DNA from: a virus
Reading direction: 5' to 3' (one strand)
IMG/VR virus record: IMGVR_UViG_3300032322_000777
Location: 1-20,754 of that record
DNA: 20,754 bases
The position numbers and the translations under genes are program-made. Every line of letters starts with the position of its first letter. Position 1 is the stretch's first letter. Below are positions 2,227 to 16,183 of the stretch, piece by piece. The notes below the pieces were generated by a model that was not told the origin of the DNA, did not search any database, and worked only from the letters and a program-made list of their open reading frames with translations.

Positions 2227-2990
2227 ACACATCAAAAGGCCGTCAAGGGTTTCAATCTACACACGGTATGCGCGATGCGCCAGAATACCGTGTTTGGAAC
2301 CATATGAAATTGCGATGCCATAGCCCAACGAACACGGGTTATTACAAATATGGAGCGCGCGGCATATTTGTTTGCCGCGAATGGCGGGAAAGCTTTGAAG
2401 CTTTTTATGCAGATGTTGGGCCGCGTCCTAGTCCACTTCACTCATTGGACCGCATAGATAACAGCGGCCCTTACGCGCCGTGGAACTGCCGCTGGACAGA
2501 TGCAAAAACGCAGGGCCGCAATAAACGAAATAATATTTTGATTACTGCTAACGGTGAAACGCTTTGCATTAGTGAGTGGTCAGAACGCTTAGGCATCCAT
2601 CCTGCAACCTTAAATATGCGATTTAAGGCGGGATGGGCACACGAAGATATTATTAACCGCCCGGTTCAGAACCACGCACCAAACATGGTTGAATACAAAG
2701 GACAACGACGGCCAATTGAGGATTTTGCGCGCGAGGCTGGAATACACCCGCAGACTGTTAAAAAGCGCGTTAAGTCAGGGTGGACGTTAGAAGACGCTTT
2801 GACAATTCGACCTGAACAGACAATTCCCGTAAAGCGTTTGGCAGAAGAGCACGGAATGTCAGTTTCTCTTTTGCGTTCTAGGCTTGGCCACGGGTGGTCT
2901 TTAGAGCGGGCTCTTTCTGAAAAGAAAGGCCCGCAACACGGGCGGTGGGGGTCTAAGCGTAACGGGACGCAAGTTCATTCATCGGAATGA
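2220..2990 (+). CDS. HNH homing-endonuclease-like protein, three DNA-binding modules
   Basis: 256 aa from ATG at 2220; an upstream GTG at 2196 is in frame but less likely. Residues 23-105 form the HNH region common in phage free-standing endonucleases, with a YGARGIFVC block, LDRID (76-80) and NCRW (89-92). Three similar helix-turn-helix-like modules follow at about 108-146, 157-196 and 202-235. Each has a Gly/Ala-Gly-Trp core close to a Leu/Ile-Glu-Asp-Ala turn. They probably read a long target site. The gene is antisense to all its late neighbours, and its last 38 bases overlap the 3' end of the metallophosphoesterase gene. It is more AT-rich than the surrounding genes, indicating recent transfer. 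Confidence 0.85.
   Translation: MTNTSKGRQGFQSTHGMRDAPEYRVWNHMKLRCHSPTNTGYYKYGARGIFVCREWRESFEAFYADVGPRPSPLHSLDRIDNSGPYAPWNCRWTDAKTQGRNKRNNILITANGETLCISEWSERLGIHPATLNMRFKAGWAHEDIINRPVQNHAPNMVEYKGQRRPIEDFAREAGIHPQTVKKRVKSGWTLEDALTIRPEQTIPVKRLAEEHGMSVSLLRSRLGHGWSLERALSEKKGPQHGRWGSKRNGTQVHSSE
2920..2943 (-). terminator. Possible minus-strand terminator after the metallophosphoesterase
   Basis: On the minus strand GCCCG-TGTTG-CGGGC forms a 5-bp GC stem with a 5-base loop (2943-2929), followed by CTTTCTTTT. It begins ten bases past the metallophosphoesterase stop codon (2953), a natural place for an intrinsic terminator. It lies inside the 3' coding part of the plus-strand HNH gene. The stem is short and the T-run is broken, so termination may be partial. 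Confidence 0.35.
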
Positions 2991-3954
2991 ACGTGTGCCC
3001 GATAATGTGACCGCCTTGTAAAATTAGGTCCACAACGCCCCAGGTCCATGCAGACGTGGCAACGCGAGCATATGGCTTGATGTAGCCCATTGGAAGAGCT
3101 GTTCCAAGGTTTACCAACTCGACGCCGCCCATCGGGCCAAGTTTATGAACATGGAGCATTTGCATACGGTGCGTGTGGCCATGTACCGCGCTCATGCGAG
3201 ATTTATTGGCAATTGAATTCATCCACTCGCCGCCCATCAATTTTCCCATTAACCCAAATGGGCTGTGGCAAAATCCGACACCCGCAATAATTAGCCACTC
3301 GCCTTCTTTGTGCAGCTTAATGTCGAACCGCGCGAACACGTCCATAAGCGGCTGCGTAAGCATTCCCTCAGCCGATGCGCTGGCGTCTTCAAAGCGCCAC
3401 ACGCGGCCTTCATGATTACCGGCCGTGTTATCCGTGCGGATGCCGTCCGCTTCCTTGCGGTACAGGCTAAACGCTTCCTCAAGGCTTTCAAGCTCGGAGG
3501 CAAAAGACGGCTGCAGTTTTTGCGCGGCGCTCCCCGGCTTGGCGTGGCTTGACAGGCTGTCGAAGTCTGCGGTGTCGCCAATCATCACTACACGGTCGGG
3601 CCGCGTGGCTGCCGCGTGCCGACCGATCCACCGGAAACGTTCCTTGTCCAAGCCGGGGCTGTCATGCAAATCGCCAATACCGAGAACGCGCGTGACAGGC
3701 GCATCCTGGTATGGCGACGACACGGCCTTAACCCGAACGCGGGGCCGTGATATCGTTTCCGGGATAATGATGGCAGGCTGTGGGGGTTTGTCGGCAGGCG
3801 TTATCCCGTAGGACAGCCGGGCCGCATCCAAGCGACTGTAGATCGTCGTGCGGGGCACGCCTAGGGCCTTCGCGGCTTCGGACGGGCTTCCGGTGGCTTC
3901 CACGGCGCGCACGGCCTCTAGCGCGCGCGTGCGTGACAGCGGCGGCGTGCTCAT
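2953..3954 (-). CDS. HTH-metallophosphoesterase fusion
   Basis: 333 aa. Residues 8-45 form a Fis/resolvase-like helix-turn-helix (EAAKALGVPRTTIYSRL). Residues 88-333 are a calcineurin-like phosphoesterase with the family's metal motifs: GDLH (94-97), GDTAD (126-130), GNHE (179-182), His230 and HGHTH (258-262). All expected ligands for a two-metal site are present, so it should be an active phosphatase or nuclease. The substrate cannot be told, but DNA is plausible given the HTH. Similar fusions are common in phages, often annotated as DNA-repair-type phosphoesterases. It begins 13 bases after the preceding gene. The last third (2953 to about 3330) is more AT-rich than the first two thirds. 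The C-terminal codons overlap the end of the opposing HNH gene. Confidence 0.85.
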   Translation of the reverse strand: MSTPPLSRTRALEAVRAVEATGSPSEAAKALGVPRTTIYSRLDAARLSYGITPADKPPQPAIIIPETISRPRVRVKAVSSPYQDAPVTRVLGIGDLHDSPGLDKERFRWIGRHAAATRPDRVVMIGDTADFDSLSSHAKPGSAAQKLQPSFASELESLEEAFSLYRKEADGIRTDNTAGNHEGRVWRFEDASASAEGMLTQPLMDVFARFDIKLHKEGEWLIIAGVGFCHSPFGLMGKLMGGEWMNSIANKSRMSAVHGHTHRMQMLHVHKLGPMGGVELVNLGTALPMGYIKPYARVATSAWTWGVVDLILQGGHIIGHTFIPMNELASRYA

Positions 3955-3967
3955 TTACCGCTCTGGG

Positions 3968-4183
3968 TTATCGTGGGAGAAACGCGGCAACGAATGCTCC
4001 AATTTTCCCGCTCAGGAACCCCGCTAGCCCTGCAACCGCCAGCAAAGCCCACCGCGCCCCGCGCGCCTGCATAAGCATTGAATGAAGTTCATCAACTTTT
4101 GATGACATATGCTCGACCGTTGCGGACATATGCTCAATTTGGACTTCCAGCGCACGGATGCGCTCGCGCTCTTCCATTGTCAT
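3968..4183 (-). CDS. Small coiled-coil protein with C-terminal membrane segment
   Basis: 71 aa from ATG at 4183, which overlaps the o-spanin stop as TGATG; a second ATG lies two codons later. Residues 3-40 are a heptad-like helix with a short internal repeat (IEHMSATVEHMS). Residues 43-68 are a hydrophobic segment ending in FLPR, with a central Lys that may break it into a hairpin. Such proteins sit in the lysis regions of many alphaproteobacterial phages as conserved hypotheticals. A holin or holin-like role is possible because no other obvious holin is visible, but this is inference from location and topology. Confidence 0.7.
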   Translation of the reverse strand: MTMEERERIRALEVQIEHMSATVEHMSSKVDELHSMLMQARGARWALLAVAGLAGFLSGKIGAFVAAFLPR

Positions 4184-4371
4184 CACCCGCACCGCTTGCG
4201 CCAGTATTCGTTGACAACCAGCACGGCCACAACGTCCGCGTCGTCCATTGCAGCGATTGCCTGCTTGGACAGCCGCACGGGCTGGTTGGTCAAGCAATAG
4301 CTGTCAACGGGACCATTCATCGAGCAAGCGCTTACGGCGAGCGCTAGCAGGCAGGCGCATAATAGCTTCAT
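4183..4371 (-). CDS. Outer-membrane spanin-like lipoprotein (Rz1-like)
   Basis: 62 aa. The N-terminus MKLLCACLLALAVSAC is a lipoprotein signal with the lipobox V-S-A-C (Cys16). The mature part is short, with a second Cys near YCLTN and a Cys close to the end (WRKRCG). The pattern 'D-A-D-V-V-A-V-L-V-V-N-E-Y-W' plus the final Cys resembles small phage o-spanins. The first 68 bases overlap the upstream TM/coiled-coil gene out of frame, which is the nested arrangement typical of Rz/Rz1 pairs. It would sit in the inner leaflet of the outer membrane and pair with the i-spanin to fuse the membranes at lysis. Confidence 0.75.
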   Translation of the reverse strand: MKLLCACLLALAVSACSMNGPVDSYCLTNQPVRLSKQAIAAMDDADVVAVLVVNEYWRKRCG

Positions 4372-4552
4372 CGGACTTGACCTTCTGTCGAACCGCGTCG
4401 AGTGACGCCTGTGTCTGTTTCAATTGTTCGTCACGTTTGCCGGCGCTGTAGACGCGAGCGACAATCACGGCAACGGTCGCCGCCGCCAGGAGGCCAAGCG
4501 CAAGGTAGCGCCCGACCCTCGAGCCAATAAGCCAGGAGAGAAAACTAAGCAT
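4304..4552 (-). CDS. Inner-membrane spanin-like protein (Rz-like)
   Basis: 82 aa with one N-terminal membrane segment (about residues 15-36, YLALGLLAAATVAVIVARVY) followed by a charged periplasmic helix (RDEQLKQTQASLDAVRQKV) and a basic tail. This is the topology of a type II i-spanin. Its start overlaps the lysin stop by eight bases (ATGCTTAG) and its 3' half overlaps the start of the lipoprotein gene in another frame. It is shorter than lambda Rz (153 aa), which many non-lambda spanins also are. Assignment rests on topology and gene order rather than sequence identity. Confidence 0.7.
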   Translation of the reverse strand: MLSFLSWLIGSRVGRYLALGLLAAATVAVIVARVYSAGKRDEQLKQTQASLDAVRQKVKSDEAIMRLPASARRKRLLDEWSR

Positions 4553-5324
4553 CGTCGCCGCCCTTTAGAGCCACGTACAGCCCCGCCGCGCACGCCACGA
4601 TGGTCAAGGCGACAACGGCCCACTTGAGCCATTCTAGGCCCTCAGAGAGGCCCTGTAGCTGCTGTGCGGCGGCTGTAGCGGCGGTAGCGACAGCGCCGGC
4701 CGTAGCGGCTGCAGCGGGCTTGACGCCAGGCTTGCTGGCGGCCTTAGTGTCAGACGCGCGAGCCTTTTCGTTTGCGGGCTTGGCGTTATCAGTTGTGACA
4801 TCGACCGGCCTGCCCTGTGACATGGCCTTTGCCTTGGTGCGCACGCCCTCAATACGCCGCGTCCATCCTTTGCCGAATGCGTCAAACGTGGACAGGGACC
4901 GCACGAAGGCCAGCCGCGCGTTGCACAGTTCGTCGATCATGTCGGCCGCGAACTGCTTGCGGACGGCGGAAAGGGTCATCTGCCCCATCACGCCGTCCGG
5001 GTTAACGCCCACGATCCGCTGCAGCGTTTTGACCGCACGAGCCGGGCCGCTGTTAACGGCAAAGTCAAACATGGCGAAGTCCAAGCCGGACGGCAGATCG
5101 TCACCGCTTACCGTGCGCCAGTAGCCGTCGCGGTAAATGGCTTCTAAATCTGACCGAGAGATTGCCTTTAGTTCTTCAACGGTTACGGCACGACGTTTGA
5201 AAGCCGCAAATCTGGCAATCGTAACGCCCCGCATAGTTTCTTTTCCTGGGTCTCTTTTGTGGTTCGAAAAACCCCCTTCATAGACTAGCGTGCCTTCCAG
5301 CGCCGTGTTAAAGTTCTCTTTCAT
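4545..5324 (-). CDS. GH108 endolysin with C-terminal membrane segment
   Basis: 259 aa. Residues 4-90 carry the glycoside hydrolase 108 signature: EGGFSNHKRDPG, with Glu16 as the expected catalytic acid, then TMRGVT. A peptidoglycan-binding-like half follows (FDFAVNSGPARAVKTLQRIVG, NPDGVMGQMTL). A Lys/Ala-rich linker (about 175-215) leads to a membrane segment (about 232-252, AVVALTIVACAAGLYVALKGG), so the enzyme may be membrane-tethered. The chosen start is ATG at 5324, seven bases after AGGAAA; an ORF extension to 5369 is rejected because it runs into the opposing HNH start. The 5' end appears to be a replacement: the older one survives at 6011-6067. The first ~60 codons use AGA, ACT, TCA and TTA, unlike the GC-rich remainder. 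Confidence 0.88.
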   Translation of the reverse strand: MKENFNTALEGTLVYEGGFSNHKRDPGKETMRGVTIARFAAFKRRAVTVEELKAISRSDLEAIYRDGYWRTVSGDDLPSGLDFAMFDFAVNSGPARAVKTLQRIVGVNPDGVMGQMTLSAVRKQFAADMIDELCNARLAFVRSLSTFDAFGKGWTRRIEGVRTKAKAMSQGRPVDVTTDNAKPANEKARASDTKAASKPGVKPAAAATAGAVATAATAAAQQLQGLSEGLEWLKWAVVALTIVACAAGLYVALKGGDDA

Positions 5325-5331
5325 AACATGA

Positions 5332-5337
5332 TTTCCT
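5332..5337 (-). promoter_or_regulatory. Ribosome-binding site of the replacement lysin start
   Basis: AGGAAA on the minus strand, seven bases before the ATG at 5324. The relic lysin start at 6067 instead relied on an ATGA overlap with the tailspike stop. The inserted element therefore appears to bring both a new start and a stand-alone ribosome-binding site. Confidence 0.6.
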
Positions 5338-5356
5338 AAGGGCAACGGAAAGCGAC

Positions 5357-6010
5357 ATGACACAAGCAATAGACGTAACAGGCCACCGTTACGGTCGTTT
5401 GACAGCGCAGTACCGCGTTCCTAGTGAGGGGCGGCGGACAATTTGGCGGTTTCGTTGTGATTGCGGGACAGTTAAGGACGTTGAATTATCAAGCGTTCGT
5501 TCTGGTATTGCGCGCAGTTGCGGGTGCTATCGTGCTGAATTGACGGCTGCTAGATCACTGAAACACGGTCACGCGGTGGGGCAAACAAAAGGAGAAAAAC
5601 GTTCCAGAACGTTGAAATCGTATCAGCACGCAAAACAGCGCTGCACAAACCCAAGAGATGCTAAATTCCCTTATTACGGCGGAAAGGGAATTAGCATGTG
5701 TGAAGCGTGGACGGCGGATTTTAGAAACTTTTTGGCTGATATGGGCGAATGTCCGGTAGGCAAAACGTTGGACCGTATTAACCCGCACGGCAATTACGAA
5801 CCTGGGAACTGCCGTTGGGCCACGTCAAGCGAACAGGCCCGCACCCGAACCGATAACGTGATCGTTCATCACGAAGGCCGCTCGATGATCTTGAAAGACT
5901 TTGCGCGACTTATGGACGTTGAATACAAAACGCTTCATGCTCGCGTTCGATACAAAGGAATGAAACCTGCGGATGCTGTTGTCGGGATGCGGCGTTTGTC
6001 AGCGTCGTAA
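5357..6010 (+). CDS. HNH homing-endonuclease-like protein inserted in the lysin gene
   Basis: 217 aa. Residues 9-60 form a small domain with paired cysteines (Cys34, Cys36, Cys55, Cys57: RCDCG ... SCGCY), which probably binds zinc. Residues 87-160 are the HNH region with YYGGKGISMC, LDRIN (138-142) and NCRW (151-154). One helix-turn-helix-like module closes the protein (about 168-210, ILKDFARLMDVEYKTLHARV). It shares the HNH block and the C-terminal module with the other endonuclease gene in the window but has the Cys domain instead of extra modules. It is antisense to the late genes. Its TAA stop at 6008-6010 abuts the relic lysin codons, and its start lies 32 bases from the replacement lysin start. 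Confidence 0.88.
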   Translation: MTQAIDVTGHRYGRLTAQYRVPSEGRRTIWRFRCDCGTVKDVELSSVRSGIARSCGCYRAELTAARSLKHGHAVGQTKGEKRSRTLKSYQHAKQRCTNPRDAKFPYYGGKGISMCEAWTADFRNFLADMGECPVGKTLDRINPHGNYEPGNCRWATSSEQARTRTDNVIVHHEGRSMILKDFARLMDVEYKTLHARVRYKGMKPADAVVGMRRLSAS

Positions 6011-6067
6011 GCCGCCCTCGTAGACAAGCGTAGCCGCCAGCGCGGCGTTAAAATTGCTTGCGGTCAT
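5999..6067 (-). pseudogene. Relic 5' end of the GH108 lysin gene
   Basis: The minus strand from ATG at 6067 reads MTASNFNAALAATLVYEGG (6067-6011), then three codons of foreign sequence (LRR) and TGA at 6001-5999. Aligned to the start of the intact lysin (KENFNTALEGTLVYEGG), 12 of 15 residues from Asn onward are identical, but only 33 of 45 bases. The ATG overlaps the tailspike stop as ATGA, the usual junction style of this operon, so this is very likely the original lysin start. The break falls directly after the Glu-Gly-Gly codons at the boundary with the HNH gene. Confidence 0.85.
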
Positions 6068-7947
6068 GACCCAGCCTTTACAATCCAGTTAGTGCCGTTG
6101 GACTTCAAAATCGCCCATGCCCCAGCGCTTGCCGCCAGGATTGCGGTTCCCGCTGCGGTCCCCGTGCGAGGCACCACGTTGCTTGACGCGCTGACCGTCG
6201 TTTGCGCGACCGTCGTCCGCACCGCGATCTCGCGCATCGGGTACGCGCCAGCCGAAGGCAGCGTCAGCGTGCAAGTGCCAGCGGCGTAGGTGACGACGAG
6301 GCTGTCGTCACTATCGACCGTTGTATAAGTAACCGTGCTTACGGTTGTTTCCGTCGTCAGGAGCGGCGTTTCAACCGCGTCCGCAAACAACGAACCCTCA
6401 TAGTTGCAACGGTGCTTCCCGCCCGTGACCGTCACGTATTGAATGCGTCGGCGCGATGCGTCGGGGACGTAGCCGCTGACGGACCGAAAGCCTGACTTGA
6501 CGTTCACCAAGCACCGGGTTGCGCCCGTCGTGTCAATCTGCACAACTGTCGTGCTATAGTTTGTGGTTCCGTTCTGCACGAAATCGCAGCCGGTAATGTC
6601 GTACAAGCAGTCGTAAGCGTCGTGGTCAATCCAGACTTCGGCCTGAACGCGGTTTGTCTCAAAGTGGACCCCGTACAGCGCAAGGCCGTAGGCCCCGTTA
6701 TAGCCCGCGTTGGTGATCCGAATACACCAACGATTAGCCTCCGACACCCACGCTCCGGCCAGCCCGTTTGCCTCCATAGCGCCGCCGATGAAGGTGACGT
6801 TCGCAGATTTTGTGAAGTGCGCACCATACATGCGATTGTTGGAAACCGCGCAATTGACAAACGTCAGTTCGTTTGGGGGCGAACCAATGCCAACGCCAAG
6901 CTGACCACTGTCAACGCCGCGAATGCCGTAGTTGTTAAACACAAATTGGCAGTCATGAAACCCTGCGCCCACAATGTCCGTCATGTAAATGCCAAACGTC
7001 ATGCTATTGACGCTAACATCTCGGAAATTTACCCAAATAGCTTGATAAAGATCGATCCCGGTTTGACCTGTCCCCGATTGCGCGACCGTCGCCGGGTTTG
7101 TTCCTTGGATCGTGAACCCTGAAAACGTTTGCCGGGAGTATGAACCAGCCAAAGCTGTCCAAGGCGTGCCAATAATCCGAAGGCACGACGTAGAGTTTGC
7201 CCCCGCGTAATAAAAGATTGTAGACCCCGACCCGTCGCCTTCAATGCTAGGGTGCGTGAAGTCTGTAAGGCTTGTCGCTGCCGCTTGTCCTGTCAAATTA
7301 ACAAGGATTGGCGTGGTTACATAGTATCTTCCAGACGGAACATACAGTTTACCGCCTACCGTAATCAGGTAATTTAAGGCGTTGTTGAAATACGGGCCAA
7401 CGTCTGTTGACGAAGAACCGGCTTTAATCCCGGCGTGCAAATTAACAGGGATAAAATCAAGAACATTTACAAAATCGCCTGCTTTTGCTGTCACTAATCG
7501 AGAATTGGCCCCCGTCCCAGATTGCGTAAACGTAGGTGCCGCAAACGTGCCTCCAGCAGACAGGAACCGCCCCGCCGCCGCGTCACCCGCCGCAGGCGCA
7601 GGCACAAGGCCCTTGACGCCTCCGCTGCCGCTGTCACCCGTAAAAGCTGGCAAAACGCCGTTTGCCTGCGCGCCTGTCAGCGCAGACGCCGCCGCCGTGC
7701 CGCCTGACACGTTGCCGAGCAACCGTTGATCGGCGAGAGTAGGGTACGATACAGCAGTTGCCAAAACCTCTTGATAGACTGCACCGTCGCGCAGCAGAAC
7801 CTTTGCTGTGCCGCTAACGCTGCCCGTCGTGGCAAGGGTTGAGCTATCATAAGACAAGTCAAGCGTGCCGTTGGAAAAGTCGGCAACAATTGGCGCGGTA
7901 GCTTCTACAGCGGCCGGGTATCGTGCGAGAAGCCTTGCCTTAATCAT
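6064..7947 (-). CDS. Tailspike / tail fibre with beta-helix domain
   Basis: 627 aa. The N-terminal ~150 residues are a low-complexity virion-attachment region ending in GLVPAPAAGDAAAGRFLSAG, a linker common in tail fibres. From about 165, NLHAGIKAG and then LYVPSGRYYVTTPI open a right-handed parallel beta-helix of the pectate-lyase type, continuing to about 500 with many Asn/Gly turns (DCQFVFNNYGIRG). The C-terminus ends in GTNWIVKAGS, a trimerisation-type end seen in many fibres. It probably binds or cleaves host surface polysaccharide. The start overlaps the previous stop as ATGA. The middle (about 6900-7480) is more AT-rich than both ends, which fits domain swapping. Confidence 0.82.
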   Translation of the reverse strand: MIKARLLARYPAAVEATAPIVADFSNGTLDLSYDSSTLATTGSVSGTAKVLLRDGAVYQEVLATAVSYPTLADQRLLGNVSGGTAAASALTGAQANGVLPAFTGDSGSGGVKGLVPAPAAGDAAAGRFLSAGGTFAAPTFTQSGTGANSRLVTAKAGDFVNVLDFIPVNLHAGIKAGSSSTDVGPYFNNALNYLITVGGKLYVPSGRYYVTTPILVNLTGQAAATSLTDFTHPSIEGDGSGSTIFYYAGANSTSCLRIIGTPWTALAGSYSRQTFSGFTIQGTNPATVAQSGTGQTGIDLYQAIWVNFRDVSVNSMTFGIYMTDIVGAGFHDCQFVFNNYGIRGVDSGQLGVGIGSPPNELTFVNCAVSNNRMYGAHFTKSANVTFIGGAMEANGLAGAWVSEANRWCIRITNAGYNGAYGLALYGVHFETNRVQAEVWIDHDAYDCLYDITGCDFVQNGTTNYSTTVVQIDTTGATRCLVNVKSGFRSVSGYVPDASRRRIQYVTVTGGKHRCNYEGSLFADAVETPLLTTETTVSTVTYTTVDSDDSLVVTYAAGTCTLTLPSAGAYPMREIAVRTTVAQTTVSASSNVVPRTGTAAGTAILAASAGAWAILKSNGTNWIVKAGS

Positions 7948-12266: not shown

Positions 12267-13369
12267 CAATAGCCCTCAGACTGCATTTGCGTGAAGGCGT
12301 CAGACTTTGACATGCCGGACTGCGTAAGCTGCTGGAACCGCTGCCCGAACGGCAACCGAGCGGGGGGCGCGGACTGCTGCGGCGCGACACCCGAAGGCAT
12401 GGCAGGACCGGCCGGCGCGGTAATGCCTAGGTCCGCAAGCGGATAGCCTAGCGCGGCCTCGATCTGCATTGGGTCCACGCCGGTTGTGATATAGTACTTG
12501 GCCAACGTGCCGGCTGCTCGCTTTGCCGCCGTGGCTTGGCGCTGCAGGTTGGTGCGCACCTGATCCGGCGTCATGCCGGGGTTAATGTCGGCCTTGTTAA
12601 ACTCGCCCGCTTCCGTGGCAGTCAGTGCCGAACCAAACAACTGATTGCGGATGATGTTCTTTTTCGATTGGTATTCCTGCCACCATTGCGCCTGTTCGCC
12701 AAAGTTGCCGACATTGGTATTGCGGCCAAGGGTGTTGGCCGCTTCGCCCACAACGGAACCCAGCTTGTAGCCGGCAAAATCGTCTTTGAACCCGCCCGCG
12801 ATGCGGTTAAAGTCGCCAGCGGCCCCGCCACGCTCGCCCAGTTCCTTAACAACGTTAAAAGGAAGGTCCTTTTTGTTGAACTTGCCGACTGCTTCAGCGT
12901 CGGCCCTCTTTTTGGCGGGGTCTTCTGGGCCGCCAGGAATAGGCTCATAACCGCCTGCCGAAGTCGGGCGATACCCAGCAGGCACGCGCCCACCTTCAAG
13001 CGTTTTGCGCTGCAGATCGAGCCCACCTTGCCGCAACCGGTTGGCTTCCGCGTCTTGCTGCTGGCGGTAATTAAAATCCCGCTCATTGGTCTGACGCAGG
13101 AATTGCCTGTCGCCCTGACTTTCCGCCAACCGCGCCGCCGTCAATGCGCCTTCCAAATCGCCGACGCCAAGCAACGTCTTGCCAAGGCTGCCAAGGTTCA
13201 CGTTGCCGTTGGTGCGCTTGCTTTCTTCGGCAAGTGCAGCCTTGCGCTGGTCCTCGATAGCACGCTTGCGCGCGTCGTCGTAATTGCTGAAAAACGACTT
13301 CCCGATTTGCGACAGCGGCGTAAAGCTGTCAGTAGCCGGAGGGCCGAGTGGGATTAGCTGTAATGCCAT
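12266..13369 (-). CDS. Probable internal virion / DNA ejection protein
   Basis: 367 aa. The start at 13369 follows the previous stop, whose TAAGGGG doubles as the ribosome-binding site. The first 150 residues are highly charged and helical (DDARKRAIEDQRKAALAEE; NERDFNYRQQQDAEANRLRQ), the middle contains a conserved-looking helical block (EYQSKKNIIRNQLFGSALT, ATEAGEFNKADINPGM), and the tail is Pro/Gln-rich, ending in a short helix. The middle block occurs in podoviral proteins annotated as internal or injection proteins, as I recall. Gene position between two other ejection-type genes supports this. There is no enzymatic motif. Confidence 0.65.
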   Translation of the reverse strand: MALQLIPLGPPATDSFTPLSQIGKSFFSNYDDARKRAIEDQRKAALAEESKRTNGNVNLGSLGKTLLGVGDLEGALTAARLAESQGDRQFLRQTNERDFNYRQQQDAEANRLRQGGLDLQRKTLEGGRVPAGYRPTSAGGYEPIPGGPEDPAKKRADAEAVGKFNKKDLPFNVVKELGERGGAAGDFNRIAGGFKDDFAGYKLGSVVGEAANTLGRNTNVGNFGEQAQWWQEYQSKKNIIRNQLFGSALTATEAGEFNKADINPGMTPDQVRTNLQRQATAAKRAAGTLAKYYITTGVDPMQIEAALGYPLADLGITAPAGPAMPSGVAPQQSAPPARLPFGQRFQQLTQSGMSKSDAFTQMQSEGY

Positions 13370-13378
13370 GTTAGCCCC

Positions 13379-14182
13379 TTACCGCCCGCCGCCGCCGCCC
13401 GAACCAGTGAAGCCGGAGAACGCCGAACCAAGCGAGCCCAACCCACCGCCGCCCATGAACGACCCAAGCAACTGCGACCCAAGGTTGATGCCGCCGTAAA
13501 TGGCATTCATGCGGTTCTGTGCAGCCTGATCGCCGGCCTTGATCCCCGACATGCTAATCGACGCGGCCTTGTCGCCGTATGCCGTCCCCATGTCGGCAAG
13601 CGTCCGGCCGTAGTTCATGGCAGTGTTGCCGGTGTCCGTGCCGTAGCCGTAAGCAAGCCGGCCTTGCGCGTCATATGCCTGCGACTGGCCCTGCACGCCC
13701 TGCATTGCGCCCTGCTGGCCGCGATACAGGTTGTTCATGTAATTGTTATACCAGTTGTTATATTCCTGGTTCGCAAGGCCCTGTCCGTACTGCTGCGCAG
13801 CCATCAGCGCATTGCCGGACGCCGCACGCCCACCAGCCGCCGCCTGCCGCGCAAGCCCCTGCTGGCCCTGCTGCAATGCGAACTGATAGCCAGGATTGGC
13901 CGTGAACATGCTGCCGAGCGTTGACTGCGACTCCGGCGTGTTGCCTAGGGCCGCCTTGTAGGCGTCGGCATAGTAACCGGCGTTCTGGCCAATAGGCTTG
14001 TAAAGGTCGCCGGCCTGCTGATAGTAGCCCTGCGCCTTGTCATAGCCTTCGCCCACGTTGGTGTTGTACGTGTCGAGGCCAGTCTTAAGGTCGCCTTTTG
14101 CCTCGTTAAAGGCGCGGCCAACTTCCTGTTGTGCGGCGTTGGCGGCCAAGCGGCCGGAGCGCCCGGAGAAAATGCTTGCGAT
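13379..14182 (-). CDS. Ejection-type Gly/Gln/Tyr-rich protein, likely ATC start
   Basis: 267 aa if it begins at the ATC codon 14182-14180, which lies five bases after a strong AGGAGG (14193-14188). It would read (I/M)ASIFSGRSGRLAANAAQQ. No ATG or GTG is available between the upstream in-frame stop and the body of the protein. A TTG at 14149 is possible but has no ribosome-binding site. The body is rich in Gly, Gln, Tyr and Asn (GYYQQAGDLYKPIGQNAGYY; EYNNWYNNYMNN) and ends in a glycine-rich hydrophobic tail. Such proteins sit at the P22 gp7 position in podoviruses and are often named DNA transfer or injection proteins. The function is inferred from position and composition. Confidence 0.72.
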   Translation of the reverse strand: MASIFSGRSGRLAANAAQQEVGRAFNEAKGDLKTGLDTYNTNVGEGYDKAQGYYQQAGDLYKPIGQNAGYYADAYKAALGNTPESQSTLGSMFTANPGYQFALQQGQQGLARQAAAGGRAASGNALMAAQQYGQGLANQEYNNWYNNYMNNLYRGQQGAMQGVQGQSQAYDAQGRLAYGYGTDTGNTAMNYGRTLADMGTAYGDKAASISMSGIKAGDQAAQNRMNAIYGGINLGSQLLGSFMGGGGLGSLGSAFSGFTGSGGGGGR

Positions 14183-15787: not shown

Positions 15788-16183
15788 TTACCAGCCGCCC
15801 CAACCATAGCCGCCGTAGCCGTAGCGCGCGCCGATCTGTTCAACCGCAAGCATCTGGCGTGTTCCGCGCGGGCGCACAACGTCCCTCAGCGTGCGCTCCG
15901 CGTTAACGGCGGCTGCGTCGAGGGCTTGTTTCTGACTGCCAATAATGCCGAACGCGCCAGCCAATTCCGCCGCCATGACTGCGGCAAACGGCAGGAAGAA
16001 AGCGTCTTCAATGTCGTCTAGGTCGGGAATAAAGCAAATAGCGCGCGCGTTCAGTTCTTCGTTCTTAGGCTGCAGCCGGCGAACGATAACGACGTTATCC
16101 TCAGCCGACACGCTTTGGCCGGCCGCGAGGACGCCGAGATTCTCCGCTATCGCTACCACCAGTTCCGCTTGCGTGCGCGCCAT
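15788..16183 (-). CDS. gp4-like head-completion / tail accessory protein
   Basis: 131 aa from ATG at 16183 (MARTQAELVVAIAENLGVLA), six bases after AAGGGG; an in-frame TTG at 16204 is less likely. It is helical at the N-terminus with an internal AEDNVVIVRRLQPKNEEL stretch and FLPFAAVMAAELAGAFGI, a layout shared by P22 gp4 and other head-tail connector proteins. It ends in a Gly/Tyr/Trp-rich tail (YGYGGYGWGGW). Lying directly before the gp10-like gene is the P22 order. It would bind the portal and seal the head. P22 gp4 is somewhat longer (166 aa). Confidence 0.72.
   Translation of the reverse strand: MARTQAELVVAIAENLGVLAAGQSVSAEDNVVIVRRLQPKNEELNARAICFIPDLDDIEDAFFLPFAAVMAAELAGAFGIIGSQKQALDAAAVNAERTLRDVVRPRGTRQMLAVEQIGARYGYGGYGWGGW

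Follow-up and report, generated by a model that had tools for sequence, protein, structure and literature searches.

The window analysed here, a 20.8-kb virus record of an uncultured podovirus-like phage whose coat protein is of the P22 type, carries a lysin locus that is split by an HNH endonuclease gene. The features of the locus are as follows:

6064-7947, minus strand: tailspike-like protein with a beta-helix (PF13229), whose TGA stop overlaps the start of the lysin stub as ATGA.
5999-6067, minus strand: relic lysin 5' end, peptide MTASNFNAALAATLVYEGGLRR followed by a stop; the GH108 part spans 6011-6067.
5357-6010, plus strand: HNH endonuclease ORF of 654 bp and 217 aa, antisense to the lysin (phrog_374, E 1.6e-56).
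5325-5356: divergent spacer of 32 bp with ribosome-binding sites for the HNH gene (plus strand, GGAAAGCGACATG) and for the lysin (minus strand, TTAGGAAATCATGTTATG), both read directly from the sequence.
4545-5324, minus strand: complete working lysin of 259 aa with GH108 (PF05838, 4.2e-23) and PG_binding_3.
5136-5324, minus strand: imported lysin 5' end, codons 1-63, GC 0.47 and GC3 0.44.
5136-6010: putative single imported tract comprising the HNH gene, the spacer and 63 lysin codons, delimited by composition, with an approximate boundary.
5118-5135, minus strand: YRDGYW motif, lysin codons 64-69, the likely right-hand crossover, with the change-point at nt 191 / codon 63.

The HNH gene lies on the plus strand and the lysin on the minus strand, and the TAA stop of the HNH gene (6008-6010) directly abuts the lysin stub. 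This stub begins with the ATG at 6067 within the ATGA overlap (6067-6064), comprises 19 lysin codons (6067-6011, minus strand) opening with MTASNFNAALAATLVYEGG, and runs past its GGC GGC codons into LRR and a stop, the left junction thus reading GGCGGC followed by TTACGACGC. The native-type junction sequence consists of GTCTACGAGGGCGGC and the lysin continuation, and the matching sequence in the second copy is GTCTATGAAGGGGGT. Coordinates, ATGA overlap, relic peptide and the second start at 5324 all agree with the initial annotation of this DNA.

An N-terminal GH108 profile covering 18 model positions was made from related lysins, leaving out the window. Among the 692 ORFs of the window, this profile ranked the stub first (E 1.7e-6), ahead of even the true lysin N-terminus (E 6.9e-6), with the next ORF at E 0.83, and the best of 20000 shuffles reached 11.9 bits versus 25.6 bits for the stub. 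Profile ranking and shuffles together exclude a chance origin of the GH108 likeness. Related lysins overlap their upstream gene by a 4-nt NTGA in 9 of 35 cases and by 1 nt in 5 more, so that both the profile score and the position at an ATGA overlap, typical of such lysins, identify the stub as the old lysin start, that is, the N-terminus of a GH108 lysin that persists as a dead remnant. The proposal that the HNH gene has split the lysin and left the old 5' end as a relic, whose start looks native and is translationally coupled, is therefore borne out, the coupling being in line with the overlaps seen in relatives.

Free-standing endonuclease genes are mostly found between genes, or within genes by way of introns and inteins. 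The HNH ORF described here is the sole ORF within the insert and belongs to the HNH family by its matches to phrog_374 and phrog_3377 (E 1.8e-43 for the latter), while Pfam gave no match. The family residues CxC, CGC, DR and NCRW are kept; position 163 is Thr, a position held by Asn in 97% of relatives, and given this substitution the enzyme may be dead. The gene sits outside any intron or intein, being antisense to its host gene with only 32 bp beyond the ORF. An intron or splicing was rejected, as Rfam showed no intron and the antisense ORF leaves no space for one, and an intein is ruled out by the strand opposite to the lysin. A tandem or target-site duplication was likewise dismissed, the two lysin copies being only 33/45 identical, as was integrase attachment, for which an identical core is missing (the longest run shared between the copies is 7 nt) and the insert holds no recombinase. 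A second HNH ORF of 264 aa is located at 2196-2990 of the window (plus strand; phrog_3377, E 4e-67; GC 0.49). It is 27% identical to the first and overlaps a metallophosphoesterase gene (2953-3954, minus strand) at the 3' end of the latter; its flanks showed no duplicated gene end, and a phosphoesterase query returned no relatives.

The complete lysin combines its GH108 and PG_binding_3 domains with a hydrophobic C-terminal stretch, has AGGA 9 nt ahead of its ATG as ribosome-binding site, and shares the retained EGG motif with the stub. At codon 63 its GC content rises from 0.47 to 0.65 and its GC3 from 0.44 to 0.76 (permutation p 0.0005), a shift with a counterpart in 0 of 35 related lysins (z 4.7 and 4.2); between the same two segments the GC difference in those lysins has a mean of 0.007 (sd 0.033, maximum 0.081), as against 0.165 here. 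DNA-level likeness to related lysins begins only at 5141/5129, i.e. at the change-point, and the HNH tract is likewise GC-poor (0.51). The composition jump at codon 63 suggests that the HNH gene was imported together with the lysin 5' end, as a single tract of ~875 bp (6010-5136) that ends at the conserved YRDGYW motif.

By residue, codons 64-160 are nearest to the lysin of L171 (62%) and that of Faunimonas L189 (59%), and codons 1-63 to those of L177-L181 (51-52%). Residues that distinguish two lysin groups favor one group by 14 to 7 before codon 61 and the other by 26 to 5 after it (Fisher p 0.0003, for groups chosen afterwards). A tree on codons 64-160 rejects the other lysin group (p 0.012), and trees on the short segment of codons 1-63 do not settle its origin (AU p 0.41-0.54). 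As the comparison groups were partly retrieved with an N-terminal query and the N-terminal trees do not resolve, we base the claim of a foreign start on composition. The working lysin hence begins, as had been suggested, with a different, imported 5' end and its own ribosome-binding site, and the foreign part extends to about codon 63, beyond the 15 codons that had originally been aligned.

Across these 15 codons, stub and second copy share 33 of 45 nucleotides and 12 of 15 amino acids, and 6 of the 12 identical residues are encoded by differing codons, including all four of YEGG; these earlier counts were reproduced. Their reading as a 5' end recoded to destroy the cleavage site was not supported, as the codon differences are no greater than ordinary divergence. 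Related lysins, at lower identity, share codons at just 18-42% of identical N-terminal residues, so that divergence alone suffices for the changes. The clustering of differences on all four YEGG codons (p 0.03 given 6/12) fits a resistant donor site, though weakly.

The same differences bear on the possibility that the HNH gene makes up a standing mobile unit together with a cleavage-resistant lysin start that has a ribosome-binding site of its own, and that this unit always restores the gene it enters. Such a unit would follow the logic of C-terminal replacement in fungal mitochondria (PMC3630166), and the own ribosome-binding site, the four differing YEGG codons at the junction (p 0.03) and the exact abutment of HNH stop and stub would all suit it. 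We nevertheless regard it as unlikely, given that ordinary divergence produces as many codon changes, that none of 174 tested HNH places carries a lysin stub, and that no HNH gene was found near related GH108 lysin loci. Nor did the collections searched yield another instance of an HNH gene with a replaced lysin start, and the element habitually carrying a replacement exon that had been postulated for this locus is thus left with no second copy.

Besides the window, the flank scan of the 174 HNH places gave one clear same-gene duplicated end, the dcd 3' end of L064. At L064:4547-6570, a dCTP deaminase gene precedes an oppositely oriented HNH gene and then a diverged second dcd 3' end; the two ends are 70% (aa) and 72% (nt) identical, with the first 24 nt the same in both. 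A tyrosine-recombinase-like ORF is located ~2.5 kb away, and the dcd gene of phage PIS 136 adjoins an integrase. Given the identical 24 nt, the recombinase-like ORF and the PIS 136 integrase, the L064 duplication is no less likely to stem from an attachment site than from a C-terminal replacement. Compared with the uninterrupted PIS 136 dcd, the L064 relic is only slightly nearer than the working end (0.71 vs 0.67). In L041, an HNH gene is flanked by two methyltransferase-like genes whose short C-terminal ends are almost the same (TRQHKLFP-SGGG; 4150-4212 and 7363-7436).

A degenerate pattern of the relic gave 0 matches to an uninterrupted lysin in IMG/VR, and no uninterrupted close relative or donor was found in IMG/VR, GTDB contigs and INPHARED. 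A search of phages for the donor DNA at 5120-5360 was equally negative, and in the collections searched no close relative covers the lysin, with the coat-protein relatives L112 (98%) and L113 (89%) ending before it. L113 has an extra 302-aa gene, not HNH, at 12870-13778, at the junction that matches window positions 15788-15791. The coat protein of L112 is 98% (aa) and 92% (nt) identical to that of the window. At L112:4485-5162, another HNH gene separates two structural genes, a place that in the window measures only ~40 bp, giving an occupied/empty pair. The most diverged flanking bins are found directly beside this HNH gene on both sides (0.70 identity), and to its right 11 of 22 codons differ, compared with 36 of 198 farther off. 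The L112 insertion is therefore the same kind of event in the same lineage as the window phage. At 14180-14182 (minus strand), the window reads ATC, preceded by a good AGGAGG, where L112 (5171) has the start ATG; either a different choice of start codon or a sequencing error may account for this.

Recombination between phage modules is frequent around tailspike and lysin genes. A module junction could accordingly have fallen within the lysin through ordinary mosaicism, with the HNH gene carried along and the endonuclease uninvolved, a view favored by the possible inactivity of the HNH enzyme (T163). However, the junction falls on the conserved catalytic EGG motif, the kind of site that endonucleases typically target, and within this phage lineage HNH genes are inserting at other sites (L112), which makes this origin rather improbable. 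An assembly chimera of two phages from one metagenome has to be considered for a contig from a virus database, particularly as the right break falls in a conserved motif, and a k-mer common to two lysins is conceivable there. Such an artifact would require two independent breaks, yet both sides carry intact ORFs and the left junction has no visible shared k-mer; we therefore consider it very improbable.

Taken together, we favor a homing-type transfer in which the lysin 5' end of a donor was co-converted and the left side was joined non-homologously, with a probability of roughly 0.6; co-conversion from a donor phage is also a simpler reading than the replacement-exon element of the initial annotation. 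A mobile HNH gene would have entered the lysin, presumably in a single step, when a break cut by the HNH enzyme was repaired from the DNA of a related donor phage of lower GC; in this donor, the gene would have lain immediately upstream of the lysin and divergent from it. Repair of the right side may have proceeded via lysin homology with a crossover near YRDGYW (~codon 63), a conserved motif that would allow easy crossover; as this crossover would have brought the donor start codon, ribosome-binding site and first 63 codons, the lysin would have remained complete, in chimeric form. As to the left side, tailspike ends vary among phages and would have offered no usable homology, so that the end was probably joined directly past the GGC GGC codons. 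Since this side did not recombine within homology, the 19-codon stub would have stayed at the old operon start.

Homing in phages is known to be accompanied by co-conversion of flanking DNA (PMC2988022), and arguing for such a transfer here are the GH108 identity of the stub, the GC/GC3 break at codon 63 together with the onset of DNA similarity, the low GC of the HNH gene, the switch of residues between lysin groups and the L112 insertion. Against it count the negative searches for a donor, an uninterrupted relative and HNH genes at related lysin loci, the unresolving N-terminal trees, Thr163 and the exact abutment of HNH stop and stub, which co-conversion leaves to chance. The foreign start and the stub are probably the scar of gene transfer between phages.

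The Allomyces atp6 precedent cited for this locus is real: mobile ORFs with C-terminal gene replacement are described in fungal mitochondria for Allomyces atp6 and for Glomus atp6, atp9, cox2 and nad3 (PMC3630166). As in these elements, the endonuclease ORF is placed between an inserted working end and a dead native end, and the copies are similar in protein and diverged in DNA, with 64-81% nt identity in fungi and 33/45 = 73% for the lysin. In contrast to the fungal elements, which replace C-terminal ends and encode LAGLIDADG or GIY-YIG enzymes, the end replaced here is N-terminal, in a phage, and the endonuclease is of the HNH type and encoded opposite to the lysin; gene-end replacement is always C-terminal in that source, with 72 mentions of C-terminal and 0 of N-terminal (PMC3630166). 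An intron-less endonuclease gene with co-converted flanks is shared with the T4 seg/mob genes (PMC2988022) and the lactococcal HNH genes (PMC12724721), which usually lie between genes, whereas here a gene is interrupted and a stub is left. The mobE gene in nrdA of Aeromonas phage Aeh1 likewise represents a free-standing endonuclease inside the critical region of an essential gene (PMC2988022), but nrdA works as two split polypeptides and the lysin as one chimeric full-length gene beside a dead stub.

A search of the open-access literature revealed no N-terminal or phage counterpart, and the N-terminal, phage version of gene-end replacement appears to be new, its C-terminal form being already known from fungal mitochondria. 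The native stub site and the imported site provide a concrete sequence pair for cleavage comparison, and the signature of a stub and a foreign start can be searched systematically beside other phage HNH genes. Should the HNH gene and its lysin start prove to be a standing unit, this would constitute an intron-free, harmless entry into essential genes at their N-terminal end. As they stand, the stub and the foreign working start show how co-conversion could bring an endonuclease gene into an essential gene.
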